Assembly (NCBI RefSeq): GCF_010499265.1
Contig: NZ_JAAGSC010000044.1
Location: forward strand, 31,266 to 95,265
Length of the DNA: 64,000 nucleotides
Direction of reading: 5' to 3'
Source of the DNA: Wenzhouxiangella limi
Lineage (GTDB): Bacteria > Pseudomonadota > Gammaproteobacteria > Xanthomonadales > Wenzhouxiangellaceae
Program-made: the position numbers and the translations under genes
Part shown: in pieces, positions 4,773-24,803 of the stretch
Layout of the letters: each line of letters begins with the position of its first letter
Numbering within the stretch: position 1 is the stretch's first letter
The notes under the pieces: model-generated
Databases searched by the model: none
What the model was told of the DNA's origin: nothing
Seen by the model: only the letters and a program-made list of their open reading frames with translations

Positions 4773-4948
4773 CGGATAGCGGGAGATCCAGGCAACCCTG
4801 TCTGTTGAGCGCGTCGGTCCATGTCTCGTAACTTCCAGCAAATTCGCAAGCATGTTGCCAAGGACATGAAACAGCACCGAGTTCGCTCGAGCCTTCTTTC
4901 AACCCTTTGGGTGAGATGTTATCGTTGATAGGGGACCAGGAGAAGAAT

Positions 4949-5662
4949 ATGAACTCAAAACCAGAGAGCAATCAGTTGCTCGCTCTGTTGCCTCAGGAGT
5001 CGAAGGACCGAATCTTTCCACAACTGCAGGAAGTGACCTTGGCTCAGGGGGAAAATGTGTATGTCGACGGTAGCGACATGGATTATGTCTATTTTCCGGT
5101 TGATTGTCTGATTTCTCTGGTCTACGTCAGGCGCAGTGGCCGCTCGGCCGAGATCTCGGTGCTTGGTCGCGAGGGCATCGTTGGCATCGCCATCTCCATT
5201 GGCGAGGACAGGACGCCCAGTCGGGCGGCCGTTCAGATTCCAGGTATGGCCTACCGGCTGTCGACGCCTGTATTCAGGCGACAAGTCGGCTCGGATCCGA
5301 GCTTCCGCTGGTTGATGCTGAGCTATTCTCGCTCCCTGATTGCCCAGATGGCCCAGACTGCGTCGTGCAATCGACATCACACTTTAGACCAGCAGCTGTG
5401 CCGCTGGCTGCTGTTGTCGATGGACCGTCTGCCGAGCCAGCAGCTGACCTTGACCGATAAACTGCTTGCTGAAATGCTCGGGGTTGCCCAGGACGACATT
5501 GTCGATGTGGCGAAGCGGCTACACGACGCAGGGATTATCCGCTACGAAGCCGGGACTATCATGGTGCTCGATCGTGGCGGTCTGGAAAAGTTTTGCTGCG
5601 AGTGCTACTCCTTTATTATGGAGGAAAGTGACCGTCTGGCTATTAGTGCGGACCCTCTGTAG
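4949..5662 (+). CDS. Crp/Fnr family regulator, copy A (diverged recognition helix)
   Basis: This 237-residue protein has a cyclic-nucleotide-binding-type beta-roll (about residues 20-125), a dimer helix with the SCNRHHTLDQQLCRWLLLS signature, and a C-terminal winged helix-turn-helix. The start at 4949 is chosen because AGGAGAAG lies 4-11 bases before it; an upstream in-frame ATG at 4907 has no such site. It is a tandem paralogue of the gene at 5809. Copy A differs where DNA contact is expected: LGVAQDDIVDVAKRL replaces the usual LGVRRETVTEAARKL, losing the Arg-Arg-Glu residues. It may therefore bind a different site, or no DNA at all. The effector is unknown; the Cys pair FCCECY near the C-terminus is shared in part with copy B. 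Confidence 0.85.
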   Translation: MNSKPESNQLLALLPQESKDRIFPQLQEVTLAQGENVYVDGSDMDYVYFPVDCLISLVYVRRSGRSAEISVLGREGIVGIAISIGEDRTPSRAAVQIPGMAYRLSTPVFRRQVGSDPSFRWLMLSYSRSLIAQMAQTASCNRHHTLDQQLCRWLLLSMDRLPSQQLTLTDKLLAEMLGVAQDDIVDVAKRLHDAGIIRYEAGTIMVLDRGGLEKFCCECYSFIMEESDRLAISADPL

Positions 5663-5808: not shown

Positions 5809-6486
5809 TTGTTGCCTCAAGCGGTGAAGGATCGAGTATTTCCTCTGCTGCAGGAAATCCGGCTGCCGCTGGGAACGGAGGTATACGCCTCCGGCCAGAA
5901 CGCGAAGTACGTGTATTTCCCTGCCGATTGTATCGTCTCGATACTGTACGTCTTGCTCGACGGCCACACGGCTGAGATTTCCGTGGTGGGCAAAGAAGGC
6001 GTTATGGGGATCGCGGTGTTCATGGGCGGGGAAAGCACGCCCAGTCAGGCGATCGTGCAGAGCGCTGGTTTGGCCTATCGGCTGCCGGCCGCCGAGCTCA
6101 GACGCCAGTTCAATGACGAGCCGGCCCTGCGCGTGCTGTTGCTGCGCTACACCCAGGCCCTGATCACCCAGATGGCCCAGACTGCTGTGTGCAATCGGCA
6201 CCACACCATAGACCAGCAACTGTGTCGCTGGCTATTGCTGTCGCTGGACCGATTGCCGAGTAACCGGCTGACCATGACCCAGGAACTGATCGCCAACATG
6301 CTGGGGGTGCGTCGCGAAACGGTGACCGAAGCGGCTCGCAAGCTGCAGGATCTGGGTGCGATCCGCTACAAGCGGGGTCGTATCACCGTGCTTGACCGTC
6401 CGCTCGTCGAAAAGCGCAGCTGTGAGTGCTACGCCGTGGTCAAGCAGGAGACAGACCGGCTGGCGGCTTACGCCAAGACGCTCTGA
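5809..6486 (+). CDS. Crp/Fnr family regulator, copy B (in-frame stop near ancestral start)
   Basis: Copy B encodes the same architecture as copy A: beta-roll sensor, CNRHHTIDQQLCRWLLLS dimer helix and winged helix-turn-helix, here with the canonical LGVRRETVTEAARKL recognition helix. Aligning it with copy A places its ancestral start at the ATG at 5773, but that frame reads six codons (M-E-S-G-P-E) and then TAA at 5791-5793 before resuming as N-E-L-L-A-L-L-P-Q. Translation must therefore begin downstream, at TTG 5809 or 5812 or GTG 5824, none of which has a visible ribosome-binding site. The rest of the frame is intact, which suggests a recent lesion, a sequencing error, or inefficient reinitiation. 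It may be a pseudogene in the making. Confidence 0.7.
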   Translation: MLPQAVKDRVFPLLQEIRLPLGTEVYASGQNAKYVYFPADCIVSILYVLLDGHTAEISVVGKEGVMGIAVFMGGESTPSQAIVQSAGLAYRLPAAELRRQFNDEPALRVLLLRYTQALITQMAQTAVCNRHHTIDQQLCRWLLLSLDRLPSNRLTMTQELIANMLGVRRETVTEAARKLQDLGAIRYKRGRITVLDRPLVEKRSCECYAVVKQETDRLAAYAKTL

Positions 6487-7358: not shown

Positions 7359-9320
7359 TCAGAAGCGCTCGAAGCCGCTGTCGTCGAAATCACCCTTGTC
7401 TTCCGATGACCCGGAGGCTTGTGGCTGTTTTGATGTGCGTGCGACCCGCGGGGCGCCCGAAGAGCGCCCGCTGCCGCCACTTCCAGAGACGATGTCAAGC
7501 TTGAAGAACGACATCATTTCCTGCAGTTGCTGGGCCTGGCTGCTCATCTCTTCGGAAGTGGAAGCGAGCTCTTCGGAGGCCGAGGCATTCTGCTGGGTGA
7601 TCTGGTCCATCTGGCCCATGGAGGTCGTGATCTGACCCGTACCTTCGGCCTGTTCGTTGGAGGCTGCGGCGATTTCCTGGACCAGGTCGGCGGTCTTGGT
7701 GATGCTGGGGACGATTTCTTCCAGCAGCTTCCCGGCCCGCTCGGCGACCGACACGCTGTTGCTGGCCAGCCCGCTGATTTCCTGCGAGGCGACCTGGCTG
7801 CGTTCGGCCAGCTTGCGGACTTCGGCGGCCACCACGGCAAAGCCCTTGCCGTGCTCGCCGGCGCGGGCGGCCTCGATAGCGGCATTGAGCGCCAGCAGGT
7901 TGGTCTGGTAGGCGATGTCTTCGATGATGCTGATCTTGTCGGCGATGTTGCGCATGGCCTCCACGGTCTGGGTAACCGCTTCTCCACCTTCCTGGCCCTG
8001 TTCGGAAGACTTGATCGCCATGGTGTCGGTGACCCGCGCATTTTCTGCGTTCTGCGCGATCGAGCTGGAGATCTGTTCGACCGATGCGCTGGTCTCTTCG
8101 ACGCTGGCCGCCTGCTCGCTGGAGGACTGGCTCAGGCTCTGGGCGGTCGCGCTGACCTCTTCGCTGGCGCTGGCCAGGCCGTCGGCGTTGGTGCGAACTT
8201 CGGACACAATCCGGCGCAGCTGTTCGACCATCTGCACCAGGGCGGCCAGGATGCCTGTTTTCTCGCCCTCGGCGATGCGCACATCCAGATTGCCTTCAGC
8301 CACTTCGTGGGCGATGCGCTGGATTTCGGCCGGCTCGCCGCCCACCTTGCGCAACACGTCACGCATGATGAAGATCACTACACCGATGGCAATCAGCACG
8401 GCAAGCAGCGAGACGATCAGCACCGTGCGAATGGTGGATGCGTTGCTCGCCTGGACGCGAGGCCCGAGCTCATCCTGGTCTTCGGTCACCGACATCGTGA
8501 CGCCGTCGAGCGCATCGGCGATCCGCGGACCATTGGCGTCGAGCACGTTCGTGAGGATGTCGTTACGTTCGTTGATGATGTCGTGAGCCTGGTTGAAGGC
8601 CTGCACGTACTGGTCCATGGACTGGCGCAGTTCAGATAACCGCTGCCGCCGCTCCGGGTTTTCGAGGGCGTCATCCAGCGCCTGGATCTCGCGATTCAGA
8701 TTGGTCTCGAGTTCCAGGATGGCTCTGTCGTAGTCTTCCTCGCTGTTGGATTCGAGGAAGCGGATGGCATACAGGCGGCCTAGCAGCAGTTGCTGCTGGG
8801 CAACACCGGCAAAGTAGGTGGCCTCGGCGTCGCCGGCGGCAAAGGCGGACTCGATGATGTCGGTCAGGGCCTGTCGTGCCTCGATACCCTGAACATCCAT
8901 GATGCCGGTAACGACGTCGTTTCGCTGTCCGACCAGCTCGACGACCTGCGGGAAAGCGTCCTCGTATTCCTGGATCAGTCGGTCTGCTTCATCCACCAGT
9001 CGGGCCCGCTCGGGGTTCTGGATCTCGCGCTGGGCGTCTTCCATCAAGCGCTTGACTTCGGCCATGTATTCATTGAACTGGTCGATATCCTGCTGGCTCC
9101 AGGTGATCTGGTAGTCCTTGACGTTCATGCGAACCATCAGCAGGTTCATCTGGAGCTCGCCGGCAAGATTGGAATCGCGCGCCAAACCGCGATATTCGGT
9201 GAAGCCCTCGTCGGCGACGTTCAGTCCGTTCCATGCGCTCCCGCTGACGATGAGCAGCATGACGATGACGATGCCGAATCCAAGAAACAGCAGCGTTTTG
9301 AGCTTCATTCTTTGCAGCAT
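7359..9320 (-). CDS. Methyl-accepting chemotaxis protein
   Basis: The 653-residue protein has a first membrane helix (about 7-27), a long all-helical periplasmic region (about 28-305), a second membrane helix ([20 protein letters not shown], about 308-328), a HAMP domain and a coiled-coil signalling domain. The hairpin tip carries the highly conserved [20 protein letters not shown] and [18 protein letters not shown]. The periplasmic length and helical content fit a helical bimodular (HBM-like) sensor, which in known receptors binds organic acids; the ligand here is unknown. It ends DDSGFERF and lacks the NWETF-type CheR tether. No other chemotaxis genes are nearby, so it must feed a pathway encoded elsewhere. 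Confidence 0.92.
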
Positions 9321-9627
9321 GACGGTGACTCCTCGGTGGACCGTTTAGCCGGATCAGGTCGCTGGGCGGGGCGCTGGAGGACAGCTCTCGTCGCGCGGCG
9401 CGAGGCGGAAACGGATATTGACAGTGGCTCTCGTCCCCTCAATGGACGCTAGCAGTCTAGGCCTCCACTTGATGCATGGAATTGACTCATATCAAATTCA
9501 TAGAATGGATAAGTATCTGTAAATGCTATGAAATAACATACCTTCACGGGTCTCTCCGCTTTTCCTTCCGACGTCCGGCTGCCTTCGCTGCTTTCGTTTT
9601 CATTTCTCGTGCGTTACGGTTATCGGC
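9321..9627. other. Divergent intergenic region between chemotaxis receptor and dioxygenase
   Basis: These 307 bases separate two divergent genes. The part at about 9475-9545 is clearly AT-rich compared with its surroundings (for example TGACTCATATCAAATTCATA) and probably holds promoters. I looked for a sigma-28 flagellar promoter for the receptor and found no convincing match. No small gene or repeat was seen. Confidence 0.5.
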
Positions 9628-16617: not shown

Positions 16618-16929
16618 ATGAAACGATTGAGTCTTGTATTGCTGATTCTGCTGTTGACGGCCCTGGCCGCCCCGGCGCTGGCCGACAACGATCAGTGCCT
16701 GATGTGCCACCAGGCCATGGAGGAAACCCCCGTCCAGGCCCACCAGAACTGCATGGTCTGCCATCAGGACGGGGCCGAAGAGCACCTGTCCAACCCGCGC
16801 GCGAAACCGGAGCCGGTGTCTGACGAAACCTGCGCCATGTGCCACCAGCCCAACGACGACTTCAAGGCGATTTCTGCCCACACCATGGGCATGGAATGCG
16901 CCAACTGCCACCTGATTCACGACGAGTGA
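16618..16929 (+). CDS. Small periplasmic tetrahaem cytochrome c
   Basis: The 103-residue precursor has a signal peptide (about 1-22, ending LAAPALADN) and four CxxCH haem c sites: CLMCH, CMVCH, CAMCH and CANCH, with extra histidines (AHQNC, SAHTMG) that can serve as distal ligands. That makes a mature protein of about 80 residues holding four haems, the density of cytochrome c3/NapC-like electron carriers. It lacks a membrane anchor, so it is a soluble periplasmic carrier. It stands alone here, about 6 kb from the NapC/octahaem pair, and could be an electron partner for it, which is inference. Confidence 0.9.
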   Translation: MKRLSLVLLILLLTALAAPALADNDQCLMCHQAMEETPVQAHQNCMVCHQDGAEEHLSNPRAKPEPVSDETCAMCHQPNDDFKAISAHTMGMECANCHLIHDE

Positions 16930-22772: not shown

Positions 22773-22905
22773 ATCGCACGGCGGCGCTCTGTGCGGCTTG
22801 ACGGCGGTCAATTCTGGCCTGTTTCGAGCGATATCGGCCGAATCCAGGCAGGCGTTCACGCCATGCCCTACGGTAAATGACAGATGCCACTGGAGCGCGC
22901 CTGTC

Positions 22906-23439
22906 ATGCGCTGGATAAAGTACGCCGTCGTCGCCGCCATCCTTATCCCGATTTTCGTGATCGGGTCGTGGGCGATTACCGATGTGGTCGTCCACGAGAC
23001 CGGCGACGCCGAGTTCTGCAGCACTTGCCACGCCATGCGGCCGATGGTGGCGGCCTACCGCGAGGACGTCCACGGCGGGGCCGGCGAGCAGGGCATCCAG
23101 GCCGCGTGTACCGATTGTCACGCGCCGCACGATAACCCGCTCAACTACATGTGGGCCAAGGCACGTTTCGGCACCCACAGCCTGTGGGCGCAGCTGACCT
23201 ACGACATCGACGAGATCGACTGGGAAGCCAAGCGCGAGGAGCGCGAGCGCCTGGTATTCGATTCCGGCTGCCTGAAATGCCACAGCGATCTCGAGCGCGC
23301 CAGCGAAGGCAATCCGTCAAGCTTCATCGCCCATCGCGCCTATTTTCGGGGCGAGACAGAGCGCCAGTGCGTGACCTGTCACGCCCACGTCGGCCACGAA
23401 AACCTGAGCGCCCATCTCGATCGATTTTTCGGAGAATGA
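22906..23439 (+). CDS. NapC/NirT-type tetrahaem cytochrome c (quinol dehydrogenase)
   Basis: The 177-residue protein has a single N-terminal membrane helix (about 5-25, YAVVAAILIPIFVIGSWAIT) and four CxxCH sites at about residues 38-42 (CSTCH), 68-72 (CTDCH), 122-126 (CLKCH) and 155-159 (CVTCH). The family's FCSTCHAMRP segment and the C-terminal CVTCHAHVGH are present. Such proteins oxidise membrane quinol and pass electrons to periplasmic reductases. The octahaem gene starts 14 bases downstream, so this is almost certainly its redox partner, as in the gene pairs of epsilonproteobacterial HAO (HaoC-HaoA). It could also serve other periplasmic reductases. Confidence 0.9.
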   Translation: MRWIKYAVVAAILIPIFVIGSWAITDVVVHETGDAEFCSTCHAMRPMVAAYREDVHGGAGEQGIQAACTDCHAPHDNPLNYMWAKARFGTHSLWAQLTYDIDEIDWEAKREERERLVFDSGCLKCHSDLERASEGNPSSFIAHRAYFRGETERQCVTCHAHVGHENLSAHLDRFFGE

Positions 23440-23453
23440 GGAGAGCAACAGCC

Positions 23454-24803
23454 ATGCGAATGATTCATCAAATGATCGTCCTAGCCATGCTCGCCTGTCT
23501 GGCGACCTTTGCTGCGGCCCAGAACGAAGACCCCGGCGACCTGACCCAGATCAAGACGCTGTCGATCGATCGTGGCCTGACCGAAGCCGGCAAGAACTGC
23601 GTGACCTGTCACGCCAAGGTCAGTCCCAACACGACCAACGACTGGCGTCACAGCCGTCATGGCCACGTCGGCGTGTCGTGCATCGATTGTCACGCCGTGC
23701 CGGCCGATTCCGAGACCGCCATCCTGCACGACGAGGTCTTCGATATGTCCGACTATGACGCGTCGATGCTTGAAGACGAGGTCCACATTTCCGTGCTCGT
23801 ACCCCCCAGTACCTGCGCGCGCTGCCACGCCGTCGAGCACGAGCAGTTCACCGAAAGCGGCCACTATCGTTCCTATCACCAGATCGTTCCGAAAGACAAT
23901 CTCCATGCCCTGACCGATGTGCACGAAGGTCAGAACCATCCAGAGCTGGCCGGAGCGCCCAACGAAACCGGCTGCATGCAGTGCCACGGCACCGAGATCA
24001 AACTCGACGAGGACGGGCGGCCGACGCCGGAGACCTGGCCCAATGCCGGGATGGGTAACGTCTATCCCAGCGGCAGCACCGGCAACTGCACCGCGTGCCA
24101 CTCGCGCCACCGATTCTCGATTGCCGAGGCGCGCAAGCCGTTCGCCTGCGCCGAGTGTCACCTGGGTCCGGACCATCCCAATATCGAGATTTTCGAGGCC
24201 TCCAAGCACGGCCATATCTACAACACCCGCAACGACGAGGAATGGAACTGGGACGTCGCCCCGGGCGCCTGGGAAGTGGGCGATTTCCGCGGCCCGGTGT
24301 GCTCGACCTGCCACATGGCCGGCATCGGCGAGCTCAAGACCACGCACAATATCTCCGAGCGCCTGTACTGGGTCTCATGGGCCCAGCGTTCGTCCGTGCG
24401 CGACTCCGACGATCCGATGAGCCCCATCCTCGGCGATGGTCCGGCCGGCCGCGACAAGATGGAGCAGGTCTGCAGCGCCTGCCACAGCAGCCTGCATACC
24501 GACAGCTTCTTCCAGCAGGCCGACAAAGCCGTGCGGCTGTACAACCAGGCCTATTACGACCCGGCCAAGGAAATGAGGGACGAGCTCGAAGAAAAAGGCC
24601 TTCTCAAGGACAACCCCTGGGGCGACGACTTCCAGCTCACCTTCTACCATATGTGGCACCACCAGGGCCGGCGCGCGCGCATGGGCGCGCTGCACGGCGC
24701 GGCCGACTACGCCCACTGGCACGGATTTTTCGAGCTGATGCAAGACATCTACGAGCTCGAAGAAATCTATGAACAGCGCATCGAGACCGGCGAGATCGAA
24801 TAG
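23454..24803 (+). CDS. Octahaem cytochrome c of the hydroxylamine oxidoreductase (HAO) family
   Basis: A GAGGAG site precedes the ATG at 23454. The 449-residue precursor has a signal peptide (about 1-22) and eight CxxCH haem sites: residues 49, 76, 121, 174, 212, 232, 283 and 340 are the first cysteines. The spacing, the KHGHIYN and HALTDVHEGQNHPE histidines, and the C-terminal RARMGALHGAADYAHWHG match the HAO family, which is about this length. In HAO the fourth haem is the catalytic P460-type haem, here CMQCH at 174-178. Whether the crosslinking tyrosine exists is unknown; Tyr419 in DYAHWHG is a candidate. With a NapC-type partner the direction is probably reductive (nitrite or hydroxylamine to ammonium), as in the epsilonproteobacterial type. 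Confidence 0.88.
   Translation: MRMIHQMIVLAMLACLATFAAAQNEDPGDLTQIKTLSIDRGLTEAGKNCVTCHAKVSPNTTNDWRHSRHGHVGVSCIDCHAVPADSETAILHDEVFDMSDYDASMLEDEVHISVLVPPSTCARCHAVEHEQFTESGHYRSYHQIVPKDNLHALTDVHEGQNHPELAGAPNETGCMQCHGTEIKLDEDGRPTPETWPNAGMGNVYPSGSTGNCTACHSRHRFSIAEARKPFACAECHLGPDHPNIEIFEASKHGHIYNTRNDEEWNWDVAPGAWEVGDFRGPVCSTCHMAGIGELKTTHNISERLYWVSWAQRSSVRDSDDPMSPILGDGPAGRDKMEQVCSACHSSLHTDSFFQQADKAVRLYNQAYYDPAKEMRDELEEKGLLKDNPWGDDFQLTFYHMWHHQGRRARMGALHGAADYAHWHGFFELMQDIYELEEIYEQRIETGEIE

Follow-up and report, generated by a model that had tools for sequence, protein, structure and literature searches.

Organization of the locus

A pair of multihaem cytochrome genes was identified in Wenzhouxiangella limi within a 64 kb stretch of DNA, which was analyzed as a whole and is referred to here as the window (Table 1). 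The first gene encodes P0001, with four CXXCH motifs and a single hydrophobic helix at its N-terminus (residues 7-25), and the second encodes P0002, with eight CXXCH motifs and an N-terminus that resembles a signal peptide. The stop codon of the former and the start codon of the latter are 14 bases apart, and both reading frames lie exactly where a preliminary description of this DNA had placed them. Pfam scores of the two proteins (PF03264, NapC/NirT; PF13447, Multi-haem_cyto) were well above the cut-offs. An alternative in-frame GTG for P0002, chosen by the ORF finder at 23151, falls within the tetrahaem gene, and the ATG that is preceded by GGAG is the credible start.

Table 1. Features of the cytochrome gene pair and its upstream region, in window coordinates.
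Feature	Position	Strand	Evidence or remark
FNR/DNR/FixK-type box TTGACGGCGGTCAA, perfect palindrome	22798..22811	+	About 95 bp upstream of the tetrahaem start; putative function
Tetrahaem NapC/NrfH-type membrane cytochrome (P0001), 177 aa, presumed quinol dehydrogenase	22906..23439	+	PF03264, 1.7e-28
Octahaem HAO-family cytochrome (P0002), 449 aa, Tyr-less, IhOCC-like branch	23454..24803	+	PF13447, 1.9e-29; 4qo5 best by sequence and fold; tree
Haem-4 site CMQCH, residues 174-178, substrate haem by homology	23973..23987	+	CXXCH, not the CXXCK of ONR/NrfA
Linker from haem 4 to haem 5, 33 residues (179-211), mark of the IhOCC-like branch	23988..24086	+	5 residues in Tyr-HAO
Asp240-His241, equivalent to catalytic Asp267-His268 of N. 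europaea HAO	24171..24176	+	Alignment; branch members keep Asp (73/73) and His (72/73)
His421, aligned with Tyr467 of N. europaea HAO, which is cross-linked to the haem	24714..24716	+	Alignment

The pair is flanked by a cation-efflux transporter gene upstream and an RND efflux gene pair downstream, with functions unrelated to it. As the preliminary description had noted, no amo, cycA/cycB, or haoB gene was found by Pfam among the neighboring genes, and neither a sulfur gene nor a further cytochrome gene directly adjoins the pair. A functional tie to the RND efflux genes was weighed and set aside, as the pair had no adjoining RND gene in the relatives whose neighbors were examined. Base composition gave no clear sign of a foreign origin, with a GC of 0.626 versus 0.651 in the window and a GC3 as in the neighboring genes. 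The window also encodes a small exported tetrahaem c cytochrome of 103 amino acids (16618-16929), a possible periplasmic partner whose gene lies some 6 kb upstream.

The roughly 130-bp gap that precedes the tetrahaem gene contains the palindrome TTGACGGCGGTCAA, whose general form, TTGAYN4RTCAA, has two matches in the window where 0.06 would be expected by chance. This predicted box makes anaerobic or NO control of the pair plausible in W. limi. The clade as a whole does not conserve it: an exact box was found upstream in only seven of 80 related loci, and the nearest relatives have none. In a relative from the Chloroflexota (L039), a Crp/Fnr-family gene abuts the pair. Elsewhere in the window, the second box, TTGACTCATATCAA (9482-9495), precedes by 162 bp a gene for a methyl-accepting chemotaxis protein (7362-9320, minus strand), and two Crp-family regulator genes adjoin each other at 4907-5659 and 5809-6483.

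Family and phylogeny of the octahaem cytochrome

When P0002 was searched against solved structures, the top match was IhOCC, the octahaem cytochrome c of the archaeon Ignicoccus hospitalis (4qo5; 6e-36, or 1.7e-77 with the family profile), followed by N. europaea HAO (EC 1.7.2.6; 1fgj) and the Kuenenia HAOr known as KsHAOr (Kustc0458; 6h5l). The structure of P0002, predicted as a single chain with a pLDDT of 88, again recovered 4qo5 first in a fold search (E 2e-19, TM 0.72), with 6h5l and 1fgj next. Membership in the HAO family, as put forward in the preliminary description, is therefore upheld, and the grouping with ONR or OTR that it had raised as the alternative was not found by sequence, tree, or fold. 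ONR was ruled out by the CMQCH motif at haem 4, where ONR carries CXXCK, and by a fold match to ONR (3f29/3sxq) of only E 0.013 as against 2e-19 for 4qo5. OTR was ruled out as well, with no match by sequence, family profile, or fold. By sequence and fold P0002 is not an NrfA either, and NrfA likewise carries CXXCK at haem 4.

A tree was constructed from 87 proteins, comprising 74 rows of the IhOCC-like branch (including P0002) and 13 rows that include the nitrifier HAOs and HAOr. The split between the two sides had a support of 100/99 and was retained at 100/100 after the columns of the haem 4-5 linker were removed. This linker spans about 31-43 residues in the IhOCC-like branch (43 in IhOCC itself) and five in Tyr-HAOs, with the exception of a distant row on the non-IhOCC side (L137), where it spans 35. 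The long linker shared by the two supports the grouping of P0002 with IhOCC. The likeness has its bounds: the two proteins are about 21% identical, no NapC link is known for IhOCC, and its exact position in the tree is unsure because it lies on a very long branch. KsHAOr resembles P0002 as a Tyr-less, nitrite-reducing member of the HAO family, but it was placed, from pieces of its sequence, across the deepest branch among the Tyr-HAOs.

P0002 is a member of a widespread enzyme group that has already been described, and the word overlooked in the preliminary description does not apply, as Tyr-less HAOs, the NapC pairing, and gammaproteobacterial octahaems have all been published (PMC3701875, PMC8940962, PMC12758564, PMC12342949, PMC6449678). 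Gammaproteobacterial octahaems with nitrite-reducing activity are likewise on record (PMC6449678).

Active site

To locate the Tyr that is cross-linked to haem 4 in HAO (P460), the numbering of 1fgj was transferred to a nitrifier HAO (L126), whose genome carries three AMO genes, and a Tyr was found exactly at position 467. All six of the nitrifier-type HAOs have Tyr at this site. None of the 73 IhOCC-like relatives does; they carry His (35), Trp (24), Gln (13), or a gap (1). The catalytic Asp-His pair is retained across the branch nearly without exception. IhOCC, which also lacks the Tyr, keeps the Asp and has Val in place of His241, and it reportedly reduces nitrite and hydroxylamine without a cross-link.

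Presence of the Tyr marks oxidative HAOs and its absence reductive HAOs, with His as the ancestral residue (PMC12758564, PMC8940962). The His at this site in P0002 thus supports a putatively reductive rather than oxidative anatomy, in line with the direction favored in the preliminary description, and without the Tyr a placement as HAO proper is not supported. P0002 shares with N. europaea HAO the eight haems, the fold, and the Asp267/His268 pair, but it differs in the His for Tyr and in the long for short linker, and the hao-haoB-cycAB cluster and AMO were not found in W. limi. P0002 is not an ammonia-oxidation enzyme.

The pair could in principle run forward, with the octahaem oxidizing hydroxylamine (or hydrazine) and the NapC-type protein feeding the quinone pool. 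The NapC-family cM552 makes such a connection between hydroxylamine oxidation and the quinone pool in nitrifiers (PMC3701875), and an octahaem from an orange Beggiatoaceae oxidized both hydroxylamine and hydrazine, while also reducing nitrite (PMC6449678). However, with the cross-linking Tyr missing across the whole branch, and with genes for nitrate and nitrite reduction in the same genome pointing to reduction, a forward direction appears quite improbable. Moreover, AMO was not found in the genome or in the five relatives searched, where the same search was positive in a nitrifier, and there is therefore no known hydroxylamine supply via ammonia oxidation.

The tetrahaem partner

P0001 resembles the NrfH/NapC quinol dehydrogenases in its four haems, its one helix, a haem 1 of the CXXCHxM form (CSTCHAM), and a conserved Lys. 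Its Met44 and Lys85 align with Met49 and Lys82 of D. vulgaris NrfH, which we take to be the quinol site. Unlike those enzymes, P0001 scored under the cut-offs of both the NrfH model (TIGR03153, 7e-21) and the NapC model, and Asp89 of the NrfH quinol site is replaced by Ser92, P0001 being the sole exception among 63 aligned proteins, 62 of which have Asp. Its closest relatives were the NapC neighbors in Lamprobacter (55% identity) and Pseudohalioglobus (48%), and its identity to the NrfH and NapC of its own genome was only about 30%. By this measure, P0001 looks like a dedicated partner of P0002. The NapC-type link of the preliminary description finds a basis in this partner gene, with quinol as the probable donor.

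Conservation of the pairing

A scan of named genomes recovered a tetrahaem NapC-type gene directly upstream of the octahaem gene in 62 of 80 related loci, and three more of the 80 were interrupted by contig ends. The paired loci span Desulfobacterota, Acidobacteriota, Planctomycetota, Nitrospirota, Chloroflexota, and others, and the NapC-type partners keep the haem-1 CXXCH and the Lys85 of the NrfH quinol site. No NapC gene adjoins the octahaem gene in two genomes of the same family (G001 and G003) or in L038, and no close copy was found elsewhere in them. Within a clade that includes Nitrospira, Nitrospina, and other gammaproteobacteria, the neighbors are instead Rieske/cytochrome b genes or another multihaem cytochrome. 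A membrane or quinol-side electron donor is the theme common to these pairings.

The member of the branch in Nitrospira moscoviensis (L108) has the PF13447 domain, is 39% identical to P0002, and lies behind genes for an ammonium transporter, a Rieske protein, and a cytochrome b. By these petBC-like neighbors, rather than by locus tag, it fits the Nitrospira gene called ONR, which is expressed without ammonium and adjoins a NapC gene in lineage IV (PMC12342949). It differs from the W. limi pair in its Rieske/cytochrome b donor genes, and an assimilatory role has been proposed for it.

Most of the octahaem relatives belong to sulfate reducers, sulfur oxidizers, and other sulfur-cycle bacteria, and ONR and OTR octahaems are multifunctional (PMC8840924, PMC6449678). 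Both observations would suit an enzyme that reduces another substrate, such as sulfite, tetrathionate, another oxidized sulfur compound, or a metal, with nitrogen compounds as side substrates. We regard this as unlikely, considering the retained HAO-type Asp/His pocket, the poor fold match to ONR and the lack of one to OTR, the ammonium transporter beside the Nitrospira member, and the lack of an adjoining sulfur gene here.

P0002 might also do no more than carry electrons from the NapC-type protein to other cytochromes of the periplasm or outer membrane. Pseudohalioglobus does have genes for decahaem and nonahaem cytochromes near the pair, and other members of the branch are paired with other membrane donors; yet a carrier would have no need of an Asp/His pair that is near-invariant across many phyla, and no additional cytochrome genes adjoin the pair in W. 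limi, which makes this role very improbable.

Genome context

Gene content was determined by family searches of the W. limi genome (3.35 Mb, 99.6% complete), which has one PF13447 gene. An octahaem gene was found in one of 30 genomes of the genus and three of 43 of the family, and it is accessory in its genus. The genome has two nrfA genes, both encoding CXXCK; one has nrfH and an Rrf2-type regulator gene adjoining, and the other lies 2 kb from a gene for a NapA-like protein with a Tat signal, which scored under the NapA cut-off. Nitrite ammonification does not need the octahaem, because two CXXCK NrfA and NrfH are already encoded, and the genome can probably both make nitrite and ammonify it without P0002. 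On contig C33, at about 454 kb and 493 kb (L114, L115, L153, L154), the duplication of nrfA extends to a TPR-like gene and a gene for a small membrane protein, and a further NrfH is encoded at the start of contig C26 (L122).

Full-length NrfA was not found in the nearest octahaem carriers, which include Pseudohalioglobus, Lamprobacter, MAGs of the Thiotrichales and Lysobacterales, and the same-family genomes G001 and G003. The octahaem could therefore be the main ammonium-forming reductase in these relatives.

The epsilonproteobacterial Hao with CycB/NapC, known from the reverse-HURM pathway of Nautilia (PMC3701875), is likewise a Tyr-less HAO-family octahaem with a NapC-type feeder. The P0002 module may work in a similar manner, by analogy at the level of the HAO family. 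The next step of that pathway is Hcp, which was not found in the W. limi genome by a search with positive controls, and the complete Nautilia pathway is absent because Hcp is required. In addition, the Nautilia genes (NAMH_1280 and NAMH_0559) are not neighbors. A published primer for Nautilia Hao encodes GNPQGP, and GNPQG was seen only in the other branch of the tree (L132), a weak hint that epsilon-Hao may belong to a different branch than P0002.

The preliminary description called the bacterium apparently heterotrophic, a reading not supported here. A weak match to the RuBisCO large subunit (69 bits), with an in-frame TGA inside the match, was observed at C23:76913-77647 (L151) and is perhaps a RuBisCO-like protein.

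Proposed function

On balance, the pair probably serves as a quinol-linked reductase of nitrite and hydroxylamine, forming one periplasmic respiratory module auxiliary to NrfAH. P0001, held by its N-terminal helix, would draw electrons from quinol and hand them to P0002, whose haem 4 would be the site where nitrite and/or hydroxylamine, and possibly NO, are reduced to ammonium. Asp240 and His241 would act as proton donors, and the Tyr cross-link of the kind that accompanies oxidation in HAO is absent. Expression would probably be induced by low oxygen or NO via an FNR-family regulator, and beside NrfAH the module may be an auxiliary N-oxide reductase or a hydroxylamine sink.

In favor of such a reductase are the NapA-like enzyme near nrfA as a nitrite source, the lack of Tyr (0/73) with Asp/His kept, the NapC pairing (62/80), the ammonium transporter beside the Nitrospira gene, and the FNR-type box. 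Against it stand the two NrfA and the NrfH of the genome, which already allow nitrite ammonification, the octahaems without a NapC neighbor in G001, G003, and L038, the Ser92 of P0001 at the Asp89 site of NrfH, the very long branch and Val substitution of IhOCC as the nearest solved structure, and the missing exact box upstream of the nearest relatives. A more specific proposal sees in the NapC-octahaem pair a quinol-linked N-oxide reductase of its own, which spans phyla and differs in function from NrfA, ONR, epsilon-Hao, and HAO (e.g., a dedicated hydroxylamine or NO reductase); this proposal is tentative and rather doubtful.

Such genes routinely receive the annotation hydroxylamine oxidoreductase and are taken as markers of nitrification or anammox. 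With the Tyr missing and a NapC partner present, what these annotations indicate in gammaproteobacteria and sulfate reducers is instead nitrogen-oxide reduction, which would retain nitrogen as ammonium. The NapC-octahaem pair of many phyla offers a defined, expressible target.

Variation among related loci

No viral copy of the octahaem was found in a viral search, and a plasmid search recovered copies only in Desulfobaculum, Desulfosarcina, and Ruegeria. Two related loci (L098 and L102) have octahaem ORFs of 730 and 738 amino acids with an additional N-terminal CXXCH; the N-terminal part of the former is a long multi-helix membrane segment that looks like a fused membrane electron donor. In Pseudohalioglobus (L034 and L035, 430-4120), a divergent cluster of decahaem and nonahaem genes adjoins the pair and in L034 also contains a UbiA-type prenyltransferase gene. 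In Lamprobacter, an encapsulin-type gene lies upstream of the pair (L037), and a second NapC gene (L152) is followed by an unknown protein, another eight-haem protein of 554 amino acids, and a small hydrophobic, possibly cytochrome b-like protein.
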